From a virus: a stretch of 21,197 nucleotides of DNA. The notes under the pieces are model-generated. The model was not told the origin of the DNA. It searched no databases and saw only the letters and a program-made list of their open reading frames with translations. A program made the translations under genes and the position numbers. Each line of letters begins with the position of its first letter. The stretch's first letter is position 1. The stretch covers positions 1 to 21,197 of IMG/VR virus record IMGVR_UViG_3300045973_000525; one strand, given 5' to 3'. Shown piece after piece: positions 9,324 through 18,840 of this stretch.

Positions 9324-11570
9324 TTACGCTGCGAGCAGCCCTCCAGGACGTTTTTCCTGCACCATAACGTCTCGTATAACATTGCCGATCTGATTTGCAA
9401 GTTGAGTCATGCTGGCAGTATCAGTGCCTGATCCACCTTGTGACTGAGTGCTAACCTGCCCTGTCTGCGGACTGATCATGACATTCACCACAACCGATCC
9501 ACCGGATCCAGCCTTCGTACCGCCCGACATCGTGACCGGGATGCTTTTCCCATCAGGCAACGGGACAAACGCTTCCGGCGTACGGCCCTCGCCAAATAAC
9601 GCAACTTGCGGGGAGTTCGCAATACCGCCAGTGGCATAGGCATTCAGCGGCATGGGGCCTGCACTGGTCATGATTCCGCCATCTGCAAAACCGAACATAC
9701 TGGCGACCGAGCTCATCATGCCGGCACCCTGCCCGCCTTGCATCATCTGAGCCAATGGCTTCATGATATTTTGCTGGACTTGGATCCGGATCAAATCCGT
9801 GATGATGCTCTCAGCCATTGAGCGGAAATTAAGCTGACCGGTCTTAACGAAATTGACCAGCCCATCTTCCATGCCCTTAAACGCATCATTGAATAACTTC
9901 TGCGATGAAGTGGCCGCATTGGTAACCGAGTCGAGATAGGTATTGATGGCATTTTTTGCGCCTTGGCCCCAGGAGCGAGTCACTTCTGATCGCGCTGTTA
10001 ACTCGACATTCGCACCCGCTTTAGTCGCGTCTGCCGCCTTTTTTGCACCTTCAACCGCATCGTTATAGGCAGAATTTACGGCTGGATTACTATCGCGATC
10101 CTTAAATTTTGCATTGTCTTTGAGGGCCAGCAATTCTTTTTCCAGGGCGACATCAACACGCCGGTTCTCCGTGGCAATCTGGATCTCAAGCGCATTTTTG
10201 CCGATCATGGAATTTTCAAACTGGAGTTGAGCCGTATATTCCGATGAGGCCGCCATTGCCTTCTCAACGATCTTGGATGACTCTTCCTGCGCCTGCGCGC
10301 CCTTCATCGCATCAAAGCTGGCGGTGTAGCGCTCAACTAATGGCGCGGCAGCTGTCAATTGGTCTATCGTCGCGCCAGCGATCGCCATTTGCGAGAATAA
10401 AATCTGCGCGGCATTCGCCCCTACAGACTCCATTTGTTTTTTGAATGACTCTTCAGTCAGCTTTTTAAGCATCTCGTCGAGCTGGGCCTGCAACTTGTCT
10501 TTTTTCAGCCCTTTAGCAATTCCCCTTGCATATCCATCAGCAGAGGTCTTGCCGGACTGCTCAGCCGCATCCGCCGTCTTTGGTGCTGTGTCATCCCATA
10601 GTTTGACAATGCTTTCAAGATCAGACTGAACAGACGTCACCATATCTTGGTGTGCAGTTGAAATAGCATTCCCGGCCGCCTTAAAATCGCCTTCCAACGC
10701 TAAGCCGATTGCAGCAGCGGCAGATCCGATCGTCGTTCCTACTGTTTCAAACACTGACTTAACAATAATGCCAGAGCTTACGATAAGCTTCAGCGCGGTA
10801 TCTAGCACACTGATTTTTGAATGGAGAGTATCGGTGTTTGTCGCGCTATCGACCATTGCCTGAGAAATCTTATCAAAGGTCGGCAGCATGGCTTGCATCG
10901 CGTGATTGACCAGCCCTTCATTCGCCATTTTCATGATGGTGAATCGGTCGTTGACGTCTTGTGCTGCCTGCGATGTTGGGCCGCTCAGCGTGAGTCCCAG
11001 CTTGTCAGAAAGGTCGGCGAACTTATTCATCTCAGCAGAGCCTCCATTCAGCATTGGAATCAAAGCCTTGCCTGTTTTCCCAAAAATATCCATGGCCAAC
11101 GCAGTTTTTCCTGCGCCGTCCTCCATTTTGGAAAACCTGTCGGCGACTTCAGACATGATCTGATCATTGCTTTTTAGATGGCCGTTTGAGTCTTTTACGC
11201 TGATATTGAGAAATTCAAATGCGCTTTTTGCAGCACCGGTGCCAGCGGCTGCGTCAATGGCATTTTTAGACAGCTTACCCATCGCGCCGGCCAGCGTCTC
11301 CATATCGATATCAGATAGACGGGCCGATACCGACATACGCGATAGCGCCTCTGTTGAGACGCCGACGCTTTGCGCCATCTTTCCCAGCTTATCGGCGGAC
11401 TCCATGGAGGATTTGATGAACTCACCCATAATCCCAACACCAACGGCCTCGGCGAGGTGCAACAGGTTTTTATGCAGATCCGTGGCGGACTGCTTAACGG
11501 AGTTAAACGCGCCTTGAGTATTATCTTTCGCCTCAATAACAATTTGCGCTACATTCACCGCCACAATCAC
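9324..11570 (-). CDS. Tape measure protein, gpH-like
   Basis: 748 residues, somewhat shorter than lambda gpH (853); tail length follows this length. Parts seen: an N-terminal helical segment (AQIVIEAKDNTQGAFNSVKQSATDLHKNLLHLAEAVGVGIMGEFIKSSMESADKLGKMAQSVGVSTEAL), the conserved FGKTGKALIPMLNGG motif around residue 165, a hydrophobic stretch (LKLIVSSGIIVKSVFETVGTTIGSAAAAIG), long charged helices, and a lambda-type tape measure C-terminus (NTYLDSVTNAATSSQKLFNDAFKGMEDGLVNFVKTGQ) followed by the GGI...G.....VALFGEGRTPEAFVPLPDG segment. There is no ATG near the N-terminus: the frame begins with GTG at 11570, and GTG at 11564 is better spaced (7 nt) from AAGGGGG. The start lies inside the end of the gpT frame. 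Confidence 0.95.
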   Translation of the reverse strand: MIVAVNVAQIVIEAKDNTQGAFNSVKQSATDLHKNLLHLAEAVGVGIMGEFIKSSMESADKLGKMAQSVGVSTEALSRMSVSARLSDIDMETLAGAMGKLSKNAIDAAAGTGAAKSAFEFLNISVKDSNGHLKSNDQIMSEVADRFSKMEDGAGKTALAMDIFGKTGKALIPMLNGGSAEMNKFADLSDKLGLTLSGPTSQAAQDVNDRFTIMKMANEGLVNHAMQAMLPTFDKISQAMVDSATNTDTLHSKISVLDTALKLIVSSGIIVKSVFETVGTTIGSAAAAIGLALEGDFKAAGNAISTAHQDMVTSVQSDLESIVKLWDDTAPKTADAAEQSGKTSADGYARGIAKGLKKDKLQAQLDEMLKKLTEESFKKQMESVGANAAQILFSQMAIAGATIDQLTAAAPLVERYTASFDAMKGAQAQEESSKIVEKAMAASSEYTAQLQFENSMIGKNALEIQIATENRRVDVALEKELLALKDNAKFKDRDSNPAVNSAYNDAVEGAKKAADATKAGANVELTARSEVTRSWGQGAKNAINTYLDSVTNAATSSQKLFNDAFKGMEDGLVNFVKTGQLNFRSMAESIITDLIRIQVQQNIMKPLAQMMQGGQGAGMMSSVASMFGFADGGIMTSAGPMPLNAYATGGIANSPQVALFGEGRTPEAFVPLPDGKSIPVTMSGGTKAGSGGSVVVNVMISPQTGQVSTQSQGGSGTDTASMTQLANQIGNVIRDVMVQEKRPGGLLAA

Positions 11571-12251: not shown

Positions 12252-13181
12252 TTATTGCACCGTAATTGTGAGTTCGTCATTGCCAGAGTTAGGCTGTAGA
12301 TCCATTGCCATATCCAGCATTTCGATATTGTCTTGAGAGGTAATAGTGGGCGCTGTCAGCTGTACAACCGGCGCGCCAATAATGACTTTATTACCCGCCG
12401 TAGTGCCGTGGGTCAGGGAAAATGCACCTACCGTCGCGTTGTTAACAATCGTCCAAAAATCTTTCGTCGCGATCGCTACGTTTTCCATCACCAGCTTGCC
12501 TGCCGGGTTGCGATCCGTGAACACAACCGACTCTGAGCCGACCAGCGGCCGGTAGACGTTGGTGTTCGCGATATCTAAAGAGATATCGGAGAATGCGCCG
12601 GCAAAGCCCTGCACGGTCACCGGTGTCGTGTTTTGAGGGCTCACGACTAGCGGCTTCTGGAAGGCGGTCAGCGTAGGCGTTGGCAGTACAGTATCTGTGA
12701 CTGGCGAATAAAGACCGATGAACTTGAAGCTCATGACCGGCACGGCCTTCTGGGTGAACTTCATGCTGAAGCTGCCACGCGCGCCCAGCATCTTGTATTG
12801 CAGGCCGTTCACGTTGAAATACATGGTCAACGACTGCTCACCGGAACTCACCGGTGCGTAGAGTGTAGAGACGCCGGCGGTAATCGTTTCCGACATCGCG
12901 CAGCCTTTCAATAGCGTGCCCCATGCGGGTGCCGTACCAGCTGCGCCGGAGCCAGCAATTTCCACATCAAAACTTAATTCGCCATGGCGTGCGCCCATGA
13001 TCTTGCCATCGTTGCTCAGATAAGGGCGGATCACCTTACGCGCAACGACATCTTGCATCATGGGATTAATTTTGACGTTCGCTGCCAGAATGGCATTCGC
13101 GCCACCAATGGGTACCGCATCTGTACCATAGGTCGTTTCGACCTTAGCCAGCAAAACTGAAAGTAGCGACTTAAACGACAT
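12252..13181 (-). CDS. Major tail tube protein, gpV-like role
   Basis: 309 residues. It polymerises around the tape measure protein to form the tail tube. The N-terminus (SLLSVLLAKVETTYGTDAVP) is the typical opening of this tube family ('K.ETTYGT...P'), followed by the beta-rich body: RPYLSNDGKIMGARHGELSFDVEIAG, LYAPVSSGEQSLTMYFNVNGLQYKMLGARGSFSMKF, and a C-terminal segment ending AMDLQPNSGNDELTITVQ, where PN.GNDE..I is typical. It is longer than lambda gpV (246 residues) but in the same place, just before the tail assembly chaperones. The start overlaps the preceding small gene by 11 nt. Confidence 0.88.
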   Translation of the reverse strand: MSFKSLLSVLLAKVETTYGTDAVPIGGANAILAANVKINPMMQDVVARKVIRPYLSNDGKIMGARHGELSFDVEIAGSGAAGTAPAWGTLLKGCAMSETITAGVSTLYAPVSSGEQSLTMYFNVNGLQYKMLGARGSFSMKFTQKAVPVMSFKFIGLYSPVTDTVLPTPTLTAFQKPLVVSPQNTTPVTVQGFAGAFSDISLDIANTNVYRPLVGSESVVFTDRNPAGKLVMENVAIATKDFWTIVNNATVGAFSLTHGTTAGNKVIIGAPVVQLTAPTITSQDNIEMLDMAMDLQPNSGNDELTITVQ

Positions 13182-14308: not shown

Positions 14309-14339
14309 AATCTGAGCGGCCGCTTTAGCCGCTCAGATT
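14309..14339 (-). terminator. Hairpin after capsid gene, possible weak terminator or mRNA stabiliser
   Basis: Twelve-base arms AATCTGAGCGGC and GCCGCTCAGATT separated by 7 nt lie just beyond the capsid fusion stop, in the 57-nt gap before the next gene. The stem is GC-rich in its inner half. On the minus strand the following bases are ACTACTTAGAGG, with no U-run, so full termination is unlikely and would cut off the tail genes. A role in partial termination or in protecting the 3' end of the highly expressed capsid message is plausible. It is unrelated in sequence to the two 26-bp palindromes. Confidence 0.6.
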
Positions 14340-14345
14340 GATTGA

Positions 14346-16328
14346 TTACGCTGTCAGTGCGTCTGTAAATGCTGAGAAGCATGCCGGCTGACGAACACCC
14401 ACATCGATGAACTGATTGGCTGTCAGTACAACCTGACCGGAACCAGCCAGACTGTATGGGTCGACAACGATATCGAGGCCACCGAACAGTGCCAGGACAA
14501 AGTTGCTCCAGTCAGAGCCGAAGAACATCGTTGATACGATACCTGCAGAAGAGCCTTTGGTACCGTTGCTTGGCAGATTGTTTGACACAGCTGCGCGATA
14601 GCCATTGAGAGGCTGATCCGGGTTAGTCACATCCCAGAGGTATGGCAGGTAAGTTGCTTTTTGCGTGCCCTTCATCCAGCCGCGAGTCTTCGTATTCACG
14701 ATATATCCGGCCAGTGAATCAGGTTCAGCATTCGAATTCGCACAGGCAGATTCAAGGCCAACAATGTGACTCCAAGCTACTTGCAGACCGTTAGTGCCAC
14801 CGACTACTGCACCGATACCAGTCTGATTGACTAAGCCGCGTGGTGCCGGAGCTGTTCCACTGCCATTCAAAGCCAGATTTTCAATCATGACGGCAATACC
14901 TTGTGCCAGATCGTCACGCAGCATAGATTCGACATCCAGAGATGACTGAATCAGTGATTGCTTGGTGTAAGGGATCTGCGCACCAACACGGTGAGGAGTC
15001 AGTGCGATCTGCGTTGTATTTGGATTCGTTAATGAGAATGCCGTTGTTTCAGCAACATTTTGGATTGTCGATGCGACTGTTTTACGCGGAATCGCAATAT
15101 TACTGGTCAAGCCACCCAGCACGCGGATGCCGAGCTTATTCAGTACCAGTGCATTACGCAGTACATCTATGAATTCGCCGCCTAGTACGTTGGTTTGAAT
15201 CAGATTGCCTGCATTACCAGCTGTCCCTGCATCAAATGCACGGGAACCAGACATTTTCTGGAATGCCTCAACGGGAACAAAAAATCCTTCCGGGCTCATG
15301 CCTGAGCGCTTTGCAACGGCTTCGGATGCAGCACGCTCCAAGCCAGCAGCGCCCCAATTACCGGTGATAGCCGCCTGAATAGCTCGTTGCAGGCTATAAC
15401 GCTGAGTTTCATTTGCGCTTAGGCCAATTTCCAGATCCCGTGCGCTGCTATGTTTTGTCGAAATTTTATCCATCAGCAGGTCTTTAAAGGCCTCGACAGA
15501 TTTTCCGTTACGAATAAATTCAGCTACGAGATCACGAGCACCGAATTGTGCATAGCTATCGGCAACCGCCAATAGATCTTGCGTGCGTTTTTGTTCGGCT
15601 TTTACGCCGTCATTATTTTGGTCTGGCATGGTTATGTTCCTTTGTGAAATAGGCTGAGGGATTTGTATTTGCTGCTCTGTGCTACTCGCCGATTCCACTC
15701 GGCCTGTTGCGGCTTCAGTTCCTGTTGAAGCCCCCCTGCCGATGCCAACCGAGGCATCAGCGGGAATTGATACGATGGAGATTTCAAACGGTGTCCACTT
15801 CGTGACGCGGAACACTGGATCGGTGTCCCCGGCTGCGCGCTGCGCATTACTTGCCGCGCGACTCTGAATTGCTACACCATGCAGTTCGCGCTGTCTGGTT
15901 TCGAACTCATCCCAGGTAAACTTACGAACCTTACGATCTTCACCTTCGCCGTCATCAGCCTCCAGTTCATCAATCAGGTAGCCAACTGATACCAGCGAAC
16001 GAATCCCATCCTGCACATCCTGAAATATTTCATTTGCCATCTGGCCTCGACCAAAACGGACAATTGCACGACCAATTTTGTCTGTATCAATCTGTGCGCT
16101 ATCGATGACGCCGATTTGATCATCCGTGTCGTGGTTGAGTAACAGCGGGTGCCTACCGTCAGCTAATCTCGTCAGATCACATGATCCGGGAGAGTGATCC
16201 AGTATTTCGATACCGAACCAGCGTTCGTAGGGCGCTTCAGATGAAAATGCCAGCGGAACGGTACGCGCAGTGACGTCAATGCTTTCGCCGCGCTGAATCG
16301 TGAATGTCCGTTTGAAATTTCGTTGCAT
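14346..16328 (-). CDS. Prohead protease / major capsid protein fusion
   Basis: 660 residues combining two jobs usually split between genes. Residues 1 to about 195 are an HK97-type (U35) prohead protease: LLNHD with His66, GIRSLVSVGY with Ser114 as probable nucleophile, and the family ending WTPFEISIVSIPADAS. Residues about 196-233 are a Ser/Thr/Gln-rich linker. Residues about 234-660 are scaffold-like helices (to about 330) and an HK97-fold capsid (NLIQTNVLGGEFIDVLRNALVLNKLGIRVLGG; IAIPRKT; EIALNGSG-type loop at LALNGSGTAPAPRGLVNQTGI). The start at 16328 has AAGGAG 6 nt upstream. An internal AAAGGA and in-frame ATG at 15629 could make the capsid part alone (427 residues). Such fusions are known in proteobacterial prophages. 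No separate gpD-type decoration gene follows. Confidence 0.93.
   Translation of the reverse strand: MQRNFKRTFTIQRGESIDVTARTVPLAFSSEAPYERWFGIEILDHSPGSCDLTRLADGRHPLLLNHDTDDQIGVIDSAQIDTDKIGRAIVRFGRGQMANEIFQDVQDGIRSLVSVGYLIDELEADDGEGEDRKVRKFTWDEFETRQRELHGVAIQSRAASNAQRAAGDTDPVFRVTKWTPFEISIVSIPADASVGIGRGASTGTEAATGRVESASSTEQQIQIPQPISQRNITMPDQNNDGVKAEQKRTQDLLAVADSYAQFGARDLVAEFIRNGKSVEAFKDLLMDKISTKHSSARDLEIGLSANETQRYSLQRAIQAAITGNWGAAGLERAASEAVAKRSGMSPEGFFVPVEAFQKMSGSRAFDAGTAGNAGNLIQTNVLGGEFIDVLRNALVLNKLGIRVLGGLTSNIAIPRKTVASTIQNVAETTAFSLTNPNTTQIALTPHRVGAQIPYTKQSLIQSSLDVESMLRDDLAQGIAVMIENLALNGSGTAPAPRGLVNQTGIGAVVGGTNGLQVAWSHIVGLESACANSNAEPDSLAGYIVNTKTRGWMKGTQKATYLPYLWDVTNPDQPLNGYRAAVSNNLPSNGTKGSSAGIVSTMFFGSDWSNFVLALFGGLDIVVDPYSLAGSGQVVLTANQFIDVGVRQPACFSAFTDALTA
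15629..15643 (-). promoter_or_regulatory. Internal ribosome binding site and in-frame start in capsid fusion
   Basis: Reading the minus strand, AAAGGA (15643-15638) is followed by 8 nt and then ATG (15629-15627), which is Met234 of the fusion in the same frame. It falls exactly at the junction between the low-complexity linker and the scaffold/capsid part. The spacing and sequence are as good as those of ordinary gene starts in this operon, so independent initiation of a 427-residue capsid product is likely. It could also be the fossil of an earlier separate capsid gene start. Use in vivo is inference. Confidence 0.65.
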
Positions 16329-16366
16329 GTCCGCTCCTTGTTGAGCGGCATCATGTCAATTTATCT

Positions 16367-16392
16367 GTGAAGTGTTCAGAGGAACACTTCAC
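16367..16392. repeat. 26-bp perfect palindrome, copy 1 (after portal gene)
   Basis: Left arm GTGAAGTGTTC, four-base spacer AGAG, right arm the exact reverse complement GAACACTTCAC. One more pair (T at 16366, A at 16393) extends this copy to 12-bp arms. It lies in the 67-nt gap between the portal stop (16396) and the capsid start (16328). As RNA it would form a stable 11-12 bp hairpin with a CUCU loop. No U-run follows on the minus strand (AGATAAATTGAC), so it does not look like an intrinsic terminator. The same 26 bases occur at 18543-18568. Confidence 0.95.
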
Positions 16393-16395
16393 AAT

Positions 16396-17952
16396 TTACG
16401 CAGCGGGTTTACCTGGTGGATTATTTGATGGGTTACTTCCTGCCGGGGACGGTGGCGGCGCGATCTTGAGCCCCATGGATTCCATCTGCTTTTGCTCAGC
16501 GGCCAATTGCCGCCAGACGGTATCCCGATCTAGGCCCTGCTCGGAGATGATCTGCGTGCGAGATTTGAAGCCATTATTCACGGCCAGCACAGCAGCTTCC
16601 AGATCGGCCTGCGGATCCACCCAGCCCCATCTTCTCCCCTGAAAATTGTGTTGAGAGAATTTATCGAATTTTGTCACTGGAAGTGCAGATCCGCCTTTCT
16701 GTGTGATCGCACCTAACCCTAAGGACATTTGCAGCCAGTCAAGAAACACAGGAGTTAGAAATGCCTCAATCATCCAATCCTGAATCTCCATCCAAGAATC
16801 ACGTTCTTCAAGCGTTCCACTGCGGATACTGCTGAAGCTGACTTCGGTCAGATCATTACCCAGCGCATGAAAGGCAACGCCCAGACCGCTTGCTACCCGA
16901 CGCAGCGCGGCCTTAACGAATTTGTCATACACATCATTCGGATAATTAGATGTGTTCGGCCGGAAGTCATACCCTTCCGGCAAGGTGTCGTAACTCCCTG
17001 GCATAGATACTTCGATCGGTGCGCCGCTCTCATCTGTTAAATCACTCGATGATGGCGGCGCTTCCCCATCCGGGCTGACAAAGAAACCGAGCGTATCAGC
17101 TCCTTTTCTCGCAGCCATCAAGGCGGACTGGTCAAATTCTCCCAGGTGATACATCGATTCAAGTACTGGGGCCATCCATGGCGCACCGCGACGCTGTTCC
17201 GGGCGCAATGGGATATAGATATGGAAAATATCCTCTGCATCGACACGCTCATATAGCGCCATCGTTGCAGTACCAATCGACTCACCGGGGTGTGATTTCA
17301 ATAGCCAATAGGCAACAGGCTTGCCGTAAGTATCCAGTTCAACCCCCATGCGAATCAAATTACCGCTGGGGGCAACTGCATTTTGCATAACTAGGAGTCG
17401 ATCCATATCGAGCAGCTGGAGTGCATAGCCATATTTGTTTAATCCCTTACCCCGTACGCGCCGGATGATCGCCTCGCCATCACAGGCCACGGTCTTGATA
17501 ACCAGGCGACATACGTCTGCAAAGGACATCTGCCCGGTCACCTCGCAGGTGCCGCGACGACTCCAATCTTCAAATGCTGCCTCAATCGCATCATTTGCCA
17601 GGTCATCGGCCTTACCGCTAGGGTCTGTGATCTGGGATTGCAGGGTAAATCCCGTATGGCCGACCACATTGGTAGAAACCATTTTTAAAAACTTTGCTGC
17701 GTAGGGATTATTTTGCGCAAGATTGCGTGACCGTGCGCGTAGCGTTTGCAGCGCGATGCGCAGATCCTGATCAATACTGGTATTGGTTGCCACCCAGTTA
17801 CCAGTTGTACGGCTAGGTGTTCCGGCCACAAAATTGCGTTGTTGCGTCACGCGGCGGCTGATTGACTTTTCCATCTGCCGTTGCTCGTTCCAGCGCTTTA
17901 AAATGACGCTGCCAGACTGAGAAACGCGGTCTTTATCGTACCAATCCGCCAT
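16396..17952 (-). CDS. Portal protein, lambda family (gpB-like)
   Basis: 518 residues, close to lambda gpB (533). It forms the dodecameric ring at one capsid vertex through which DNA enters and leaves, and to which terminase and then the connector proteins dock. Family signatures seen: N-terminal R..LRARSRNLAQNNPYAAKFLKMV, then QLLDMDRLL, IFHIYIPLRPEQRRGAPWMAPVL, and the PGSYDTLPEGYDFRPNTSNYPNDVYDKFVKAALRRVASGLGVAF block, followed by DLTEVSFSSIRSGTLEERD. The C-terminus is proline-rich (PPPSPAGSNPSNNPPGKPAA), as often in this family. Start ATG 17952 overlaps the preceding stop, so the two genes are probably translationally coupled. Three bases beyond its stop lies the second copy of the 26-bp palindrome. 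Confidence 0.96.
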   Translation of the reverse strand: MADWYDKDRVSQSGSVILKRWNEQRQMEKSISRRVTQQRNFVAGTPSRTTGNWVATNTSIDQDLRIALQTLRARSRNLAQNNPYAAKFLKMVSTNVVGHTGFTLQSQITDPSGKADDLANDAIEAAFEDWSRRGTCEVTGQMSFADVCRLVIKTVACDGEAIIRRVRGKGLNKYGYALQLLDMDRLLVMQNAVAPSGNLIRMGVELDTYGKPVAYWLLKSHPGESIGTATMALYERVDAEDIFHIYIPLRPEQRRGAPWMAPVLESMYHLGEFDQSALMAARKGADTLGFFVSPDGEAPPSSSDLTDESGAPIEVSMPGSYDTLPEGYDFRPNTSNYPNDVYDKFVKAALRRVASGLGVAFHALGNDLTEVSFSSIRSGTLEERDSWMEIQDWMIEAFLTPVFLDWLQMSLGLGAITQKGGSALPVTKFDKFSQHNFQGRRWGWVDPQADLEAAVLAVNNGFKSRTQIISEQGLDRDTVWRQLAAEQKQMESMGLKIAPPPSPAGSNPSNNPPGKPAA

Positions 17953-18518
17953 CAGAATCTCACATAAACACGGCGGCGTGATGCCAGACCGCGCTTGATA
18001 TTGGATGCGGCTTCTTCTTTTGCGACTTCCCGCTTCCAGAAATTAACCTCAATGATCCACTCCTGCCGGGTTGAAAATTTGAACTGTCTGTTTGCAACGC
18101 GATATTCCGAAATAAATGCACGGCTTATCACCGCATCCTGATAAGCCGCGATCAAACCATCGTAGATTTGACGCGCAGGACTACGACCATCCATGCCTGC
18201 ATCGGTCACGCCAGCGAGATTCGGTAGTATTTTGATACGACCGTTTGCTATCGTATGTCGATCACCGGATGCATTACTGACATAGGCTTGCCAGTCATAA
18301 TCCCCGGCGGCCCAAGCTTCCGAGACAGATGCTGCAACGGAAATAAAATGATCACTACCGGATGCGCTTCCGGCAATGTCATATTTTCTGGTTGTGTTAA
18401 TGATGCGGTAATTTAAAGTCCACCCGGAATTCGCGGGATAGTCTGCCAGCGAGCGCGTCCACTGAATCGTGTCGCCCGCCGTTACGCTTTGAGGTTCAAT
18501 TGTGGGAATGGATGCCAT
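17952..18518 (-). CDS. Head-tail connector in gpW position
   Basis: 188 residues from the ATG at 18518, which has AGGA 8 nt upstream; the ATG at 18527 is directly abutted by AGG without a usable spacer, so I prefer the internal one (MASIPTIEP). The N-terminal two thirds look beta-rich (TAGDTIQWTRSLADYPANSGW, YDWQAYVSNASGDRHTIANGRI), and the C-terminal part is helical and basic, ending in WKREVAKEEAASNIKRGLASRRRVYVRF. That ending, and the place between terminase and portal, match a protein widely found in lambda-type prophages where lambda carries gpW, the small protein that completes the DNA-filled head. Lambda gpW is only 68 residues, so this would be a gpW-like tail fused to an extra N-terminal beta domain, or an unrelated replacement. 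The TGA stop overlaps the portal ATG (TGATG). Confidence 0.6.
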   Translation of the reverse strand: MASIPTIEPQSVTAGDTIQWTRSLADYPANSGWTLNYRIINTTRKYDIAGSASGSDHFISVAASVSEAWAAGDYDWQAYVSNASGDRHTIANGRIKILPNLAGVTDAGMDGRSPARQIYDGLIAAYQDAVISRAFISEYRVANRQFKFSTRQEWIIEVNFWKREVAKEEAASNIKRGLASRRRVYVRF

Positions 18519-18542
18519 AGAGGGCATCCTGAAGGATAGCGT

Positions 18543-18568
18543 GTGAAGTGTTCAGAGGAACACTTCAC
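18543..18568. repeat. 26-bp perfect palindrome, copy 2 (after mor-like gene)
   Basis: Identical over all 26 bases, including the AGAG spacer, to the copy at 16367-16392. It sits between the Mor-like gene and the gpW-position gene; its last base is also the last base of the Mor-like TAG stop. Downstream on the minus strand is ACGCTATCC, again without a U-run. The two copies enclose exactly the gpW-like and portal genes. Candidate roles are mRNA processing or stability hairpins, a protein-binding operator, or a recombination boundary; the sequence alone does not decide. Confidence 0.95.
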
Positions 18569-18840
18569 TATTTGTCATTGACGATCGTTCTGATCTGCCG
18601 TTCACATACCCCGAATTTCTCAGATAACTCCTTAAAGTTTCGGCCATTAAACTGCTGACGTACAGTTTTATTTCTTTCACTCAGATCATTGATGCTGGAT
18701 TTTTTTGGTATCCGGATCGTATCGCCACCGGCAAGCTTTTGCAGCAGCTCGTAAACATCCTGAGCCAATTGATTCGCATCATGATCTGTATATGCACGCA
18801 TACGGGCAATCTCTCTCACCGCATCCTTGATTATGCTCAT
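18568..18840 (-). CDS. Mor-like DNA-binding protein
   Basis: 90 residues. The C-terminal half, about residues 55-88 (ERNKTVRQQFNGRNFKELSEKFGVCERQIRTIVND), reads as a helix-turn-helix of the Mor/C activator type: 'R...IR..F.G.N..ELA..F.VS.R.VY.I'. The N-terminal half is helical (DAVREIARMRAYTDHDANQLAQDVYELLQKLAGG) and carries the IRIPK segment that commonly precedes the HTH in Mor-family proteins. Mu Mor is a 129-residue dimer that activates the middle promoter, so this is a short member. It is translationally linked to the large terminase (TAATG overlap), and its TAG stop abuts a perfect 26-bp palindrome. Lambda has no such gene between A and W. It could activate a late promoter or regulate a host or helper element; target and direction are unknown. 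Family call is moderately secure; function is inference. Confidence 0.7.
   Translation of the reverse strand: MSIIKDAVREIARMRAYTDHDANQLAQDVYELLQKLAGGDTIRIPKKSSINDLSERNKTVRQQFNGRNFKELSEKFGVCERQIRTIVNDK

Follow-up and report, generated by a model that had tools for sequence, protein, structure and literature searches.

Genes and palindromes of the locus

The window (the whole stretch of DNA that was analysed, 21,197 nt) is a 21-kb virus fragment from IMG/VR. All genes in this part of it are read from the minus strand, and their order on this coding strand is: small terminase, TerL, Mor-like gene, palindrome copy 1, gpW-like gene, portal gene, palindrome copy 2, protease-capsid gene (Table 1). 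The preliminary description of identical 26-bp palindromes that enclose the gpW-like head-tail joining gene and the portal gene is exact: the 26-mer GTGAAGTGTTCAGAGGAACACTTCAC was found unchanged at both sites by a sequence scan of the window, and no further copy was found in the window with up to 3 mismatches allowed. No such 26-bp palindrome pair was found in 100 dinucleotide shuffles of the window, which places the pair far beyond chance. The repeat common to both copies is 32 nt long with one mismatch (AAATWGTGAAGTGTTCCTCTGAACACTTCACA on the coding strand). Copy 1 overlaps the stop codon of the Mor-like gene by one base; copy 2 begins 3 nt past the portal stop. Since transcription is from the minus strand, copy 1 stands upstream of gpW and copy 2 upstream of the capsid gene, an angle that the preliminary description did not use. 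The corresponding genes abut or overlap in reference phages with related modules, which makes the gaps at the two junctions of the window special.

Table 1. Features of the head-gene region of the window. Functions of the promoter-like features are predicted.
Feature	Position	Strand	Basis
Mor-like HTH protein, 90 aa, proposed activator; recognition-helix region CERQIRTIV	18568..18840	-	Pfam Mor E=3.7e-14
Element copy 1, 26-bp dyad GTGAAGTGTTC-CTCT-GAACACTTCAC, before gpW	18543..18568	-	exact match; counterpart at same junction in relatives
-35-like TGAACA inside copy 1, 17 nt before -10	18549..18554	-	sequence; consensus of relatives
-10-like hexamer CAGGAT, copy 1, offset 12-17	18526..18531	-	same offset as nAnnnT peak of relatives
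gpW-like head-tail joining gene	17952..18518	-	PHROG 5774 E=2.4e-26; alignment of starts
Portal gene, lambda family	16396..17952	-	Pfam PF05136 E=3.4e-98
Element copy 2, identical 26-bp dyad, before capsid	16367..16392	-	exact match; counterpart at same junction in relatives
-35-like TGAACA inside copy 2	16373..16378	-	sequence; consensus
-10-like hexamer CATGAT, copy 2, offset 12-17	16350..16355	-	sequence; offset peak in relatives
Capsid Shine-Dalgarno AAGGAG, in short predicted leader	16334..16339	-	sequence; inferred from -10 position
Prohead protease plus major capsid gene	14346..16328	-	Pfam PF05065 and PF04586

The gpW-like start in Table 1 was preferred over 18527 by alignment of starts, and the transcript is predicted to be near-leaderless. 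An inverted repeat, CCGCTC-AACAAG-GAGCGG (16334-16351), surrounds the capsid Shine-Dalgarno sequence and could limit capsid translation; just upstream of it, an out-of-frame ORF of 60 codons begins at 16354. A third hairpin, of unrelated sequence, is found directly past the capsid stop (14309-14339, minus strand; 12-13 bp stem, -21.8 kcal/mol, no U-run). At the matching post-capsid place, a terminator is annotated in Achromobacter phage Mano (L005:6963-6994).

The Mor-like protein

The protein encoded between TerL and copy 1 scores 53.1 bits against the Pfam Mor domain (PF08765; curated cut-off 24.9) and is annotated in PHROG as a late transcriptional activator. A six-sequence family profile matches Mu Mor (1rr7, E=1e-7) and Mu C (9l0x/9vw8, E=1e-6). 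The predicted model ends in a C-terminal helix-turn-helix (helices 69-76 and 80-88), with pLDDT about 84 at these two helices and a modest 70 for the whole model. The protein falls in the Mor/C activator family, and activation itself is predicted from this membership. Entries 9l0x, 9l0y and 9vw8 (Mu C or Mor) contain four activator chains each; a tetramer at the promoter is possible, and these entries bear on the 22-bp arm spacing of the elements described here.

Paired elements in related phages

An ordinary repeat family of the host, which according to the preliminary description would weaken a phage-specific role, was not found: the exact 26-mer with free spacer has no match in IMG/VR or in 84,980 genomes (GTDB), which argues against a common host repeat. 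A shortened core gave one match in IMG/VR (L091, unrelated). A dispersed REP-like repeat was rejected on the lack of any exact match in these collections.

Scans for close relatives with the window portal alone or the Mor protein alone found none, and alignments over too-diverse portals or TerLs gave no usable pattern. The phages with the nearest portals (L011-L015, 52-53%) have no palindromes at these junctions, and by this comparison the palindromes looked private to the window; the Mor-bearing clade showed otherwise. Wider relatives were gathered through a portal alignment and a TerL alignment, the informative set being the phages with a Mor-like gene after TerL. For each gpW+portal locus, the 130 nt before gpW were compared with the sequence that separates the portal stop from the capsid start. 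A matching element pair on the same strand is present at the same two junctions (before gpW, before capsid) in about 30 distinct phages, with pair scores of up to 40 (random shuffles: 13 or less). A de novo scan based solely on dyad, -10 and ATG detected pairs at 18 loci, against none in reversed sequence, and added L112 and L113, whose portals are only 25-26% identical.

The family element is a dyad of 25-32 bp (typically about 26) with inverted arms around a conserved TTTGCCTTAAC-like core. The arms are nearly identical within one phage and different between phages (GTGAA, GGAAAC, GTCAAC, GTCTAGT, TTGCAT and others). The two copies of a phage mismatch at 3% in the outer four arm bases, 6% in the core, 12-13% in the inner parts and 65-75% in the upstream flanks. 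The perfect 11-bp arms of the window are the extreme of the family, most relatives having 5-8 bp and many only 5-6 bp with 14-16 nt between; the window core (CCTCTGAA) deviates from the family consensus. L103 (a Zetaproteobacteria MAG) has another 37-nt sequence immediately before gpW and before capsid, found nowhere else in that 1.9-Mb genome. The same paired pattern, with further sequences, is found in L109, L130 and L144.

Presence of the pair follows presence of the Mor-like gene. Among 49 distinct testable phages, the pair is found in 26/34 with the gene vs 3/15 without it (p=3.6e-4). Of the three Mor-negative carriers, two (L209 and L269) are truncated contigs and the third, L284, encodes a Mor homologue further upstream; in the remaining Mor-negative phages, Pfam detected no Mor anywhere in the records. 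Relatives that keep portal synteny without the palindrome, named in the preliminary description as evidence against a required function, do exist, but most of them also lack the Mor-like gene. Among Mor-bearing phages, L016, L017, L018 and L139 have one copy only, and no element was found in L234 and L266. Ten long contigs (33-39 kb) have two copies each, and three of these (L250, L264, L286) have a third copy, upstream of cell-wall lysis ORFs (GH108 endolysin in two, a weak SLT/lysozyme match in one). Lysis genes are absent from the window itself.

These positions bear on the earlier suggestion that the palindromes bound a gpW-portal cassette which phages exchange, and on the wider reading that they are recombination sites, for morons as well. 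Inserts do adjoin elements in several phages (a PemK-like gene in L016; genes in L103, L144, L154 and L207), and the window TerL is 83% identical to that of L109 whereas gpW and portal are only 45-47% identical. However, the arms differ between phages and hence provide no shared homology for such an exchange. The element also stays with the downstream gene: where extra genes intervene (inserts of 0.7-4.9 kb) it remains at the gpW or capsid start, in 11 phages with genes after portal it lies 0.8-4.9 kb past the portal stop, at the start of the capsid gene, and third copies precede lysis genes. In tyrosine-recombinase core sites the arrangement is the opposite of the one here, where the centre is conserved and the arms vary; such a site was rejected. 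Exchange is therefore considered extremely improbable.

Some loci have further features. In L154, a 2.9-kb insert separates the Mor-like gene from gpW, and two near-identical elements (~9340-9380, 12290-12320) stand on either side of it, not before gpW and capsid. In L016, a PemK/MazF-like gene (L016:1074-1412; Pfam PF02452, E=3e-10) is inserted after the Mor-like gene and ahead of gpW, and an intrinsic terminator follows it. L103 has about 1.6 kb of additional ORFs between the Mor-like gene and gpW, and a 250-aa ORF with a weak D12 methyltransferase match between portal and capsid (L103:6584-7336). In L112, the gene after the second element is an S49 protease-type head gene; the same predicted promoter pair in L112 (9614, 11782) and L113 (6089, 8307) suggests that the regulon crosses head-module families.

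Promoter-like features downstream of the elements

Elements were defined without their downstream sequence, and the alignment was anchored on the element 3' end. A -10-like hexamer is found at offset 12-17 at both junctions independently (A13: 0.69 and 0.66; T17: 0.63 and 0.69). The pattern nAnnnT starts at offset 12 in 20/35 first copies (expected 1.6, p=1.9e-18) and in 15/29 second copies (expected 1.7, p=9e-12), and at any other offset never exceeds 6. The third copies of L250, L264 and L286, which were out of sample, have A13 and T17 in 3/3. The window hexamers are weak; both fit nAnnnT at offset 12. The TTAAC-like part of the core in relatives, or TGAACA in the window, falls at -35 with a 17-nt spacer to -10; in the 35-copy alignment, T reaches 0.83 at -35 and A 0.69 at -33.

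Start codons cluster 21-26 nt after the element, which puts the predicted 5' ends at the start codon or immediately before it, except for the capsid gene of the window with its predicted 14-nt leader. In the window, transcription is expected to start about 24 nt past each dyad, near 18519 and 16343. Elements lie directly after an intrinsic terminator in 3/64 cases vs 8/3840 random windows (p=6e-4), and at these copies transcription must restart; in L016, the terminator behind the PemK-like insert is followed by only about 80 nt that hold the element, then by gpW.

The preliminary description considered intrinsic termination at the palindromes unlikely for want of a U-run, and rightly: no U-run follows on the coding strand. 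A terminator was rejected, the stem having only a weak T stretch, on the antisense strand.

Arm sequence and recognition helix

Arm sequence covaries with the recognition helix of the Mor-like protein, whose gene lies ahead of the first element in these phages. Arm similarity correlates with identity of the Mor HTH (Mantel rho 0.19, p=0.004), a small correlation among phages that are not independent, which makes the p-values optimistic. Arms are not clearly correlated with the Mor N-terminus (p=0.08), portal (0.087) or gpW (0.67). One case is a near-isogenic pair, L249 and L263, with 96.6% identity between the portals and 93% between the Mor-like proteins. The latter differ mostly in the recognition-helix block (GLGRTAL/SLSKQAI), and the arms of both element copies change from TGTTCACC to CGTCAACC, the GTCAAC arm. 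L263 shares its helix type (Q at the third position) with five phages whose portals are only 46-75% identical; all five have GTCAAC arms. GTCAAC arms occur with Q at that position in 6/6 vs 1/28 (p=5e-6). The switch between L249 and L263 points to the Mor-like protein as the reader of the elements; binding by this protein is inferred from such correlations among related phages.

Proposed regulation and alternatives

The palindromes are very probably late promoter/operators activated by the Mor-like protein encoded upstream, driving the head genes. The suggestion of operators for the adjacent Mor-like protein, one of three made at the outset, is well supported by the comparative evidence: paired elements, a -10 at fixed distance and helix covariation. 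Each palindrome would serve as the operator within a late promoter. The Mor-like protein, as a dimer or higher oligomer, would bind the two inverted arms (about -50 to -45 and -29 to -24), which straddle a poor -35 region (TGAACA in the window, TTAAC-like in relatives), and would recruit host RNA polymerase to the weak -10 hexamer 12 nt downstream. Copy 1 would drive gpW and portal; copy 2 would drive capsid and, through read-through, the genes further downstream. The identity of the copies would follow from their being read by a single activator, and a change of the recognition helix would be accompanied by a change of all operator copies. Binding, activation, start sites and late timing are deduced from what is observed: the element, its pairing and conserved position, the -10 hexamer and the covariation with the helix.

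RNA stem-loops that set mRNA processing or stability, also proposed at the outset, or downstream translation, are very improbable. The predicted stem is strong (-14.7 kcal/mol, z=-6) and the palindromes sit just before start codons. Nevertheless, relatives often have arms of only 5-6 bp, the arms within a phage are fixed as sequence with no compensatory drift, and a search with Rfam covariance models gave no match for the palindromes. The dyad would be missing from the mRNA if transcription starts downstream of it, and a hairpin leaves the fixed -10 hexamer and the helix covariation unexplained.

That the Mor-like protein represses from the same operators, or that a different phage protein binds them, is likewise very improbable. 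The dyad overlaps the -35 region, a common repressor place, and the sign of regulation is not fixed by family membership. However, the L249/L263 switch implicates the Mor-like protein, the poor -35 and -10 hexamers are as in activator-dependent promoters, and Mu Mor and C are activators with sites at or over -35 (PMC4390567, PMC4461284). Activation by the Mor-like protein is thus the likely mode, by family membership.

Taken together, the elements probably represent a widespread late-gene regulon that is new to the literature, in which the head operon itself encodes the Mor-like activator of two or three long palindromic promoters. Its recognition code would diverge fast, the helix and every operator copy changing in step, and the capsid and gpW transcripts would be nearly leaderless. 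No earlier description of the element was found in a search of open-access literature. On this reading, many Mor-like proteins outside Mu, from phages whose packaging module is of lambda type, would gain a likely function and likely DNA sites. The natural helix/operator pairs, including the L249/L263 switch, would constitute a readable protein-DNA code, and transcription start sites and activator specificity become directly testable. The repeated dyad with its fixed-distance -10 would make late promoters, hence late operons, findable in uncultured phage contigs.

Comparison with known activator systems

The late promoters of P2 (Ogr/Delta) resemble those proposed here in that a dyad precedes several late promoters and one small phage activator is used. 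They differ in that this activator is an unrelated zinc-binding protein with a site centred near -55.

At Pm of Mu, the Mor site is a pair of 5-bp repeats, 6 bp apart and centred at -43.5 (PMC4390567). The present system shares the protein family (PF08765; profile match to 1rr7) and the general layout: a dyad takes the place of the normal -35 and a -10 hexamer is present. It differs in geometry, with arms about 22 bp apart, an outer length of 26 (25-32), a centre near -37 and a conserved core between the arms. The Mu geometry, including its dyad-to-start spacing, when tested on the sequences, was not that of the elements, whose spacing was given by the -10 peak; they would hence be a variant of the Mu Mor/C-type promoter and not a plain member.

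The Mu C site overlaps the -35 element at Pmom, and the late promoters Plys, PI, PP and Pmom have non-consensus -10 and -35 (PMC4461284). As in Mu, several late promoters, including those of lysis and head genes (here gpW and capsid, and lysis genes in three relatives), would depend on one dimeric phage-encoded activator. Unlike in Mu, the activator gene is found inside the structural operon, between terminase and gpW; the phages have a lambda-type terminase-portal module; transcripts are predicted to be near-leaderless; and the operator arms diverge between phages together with the activator.
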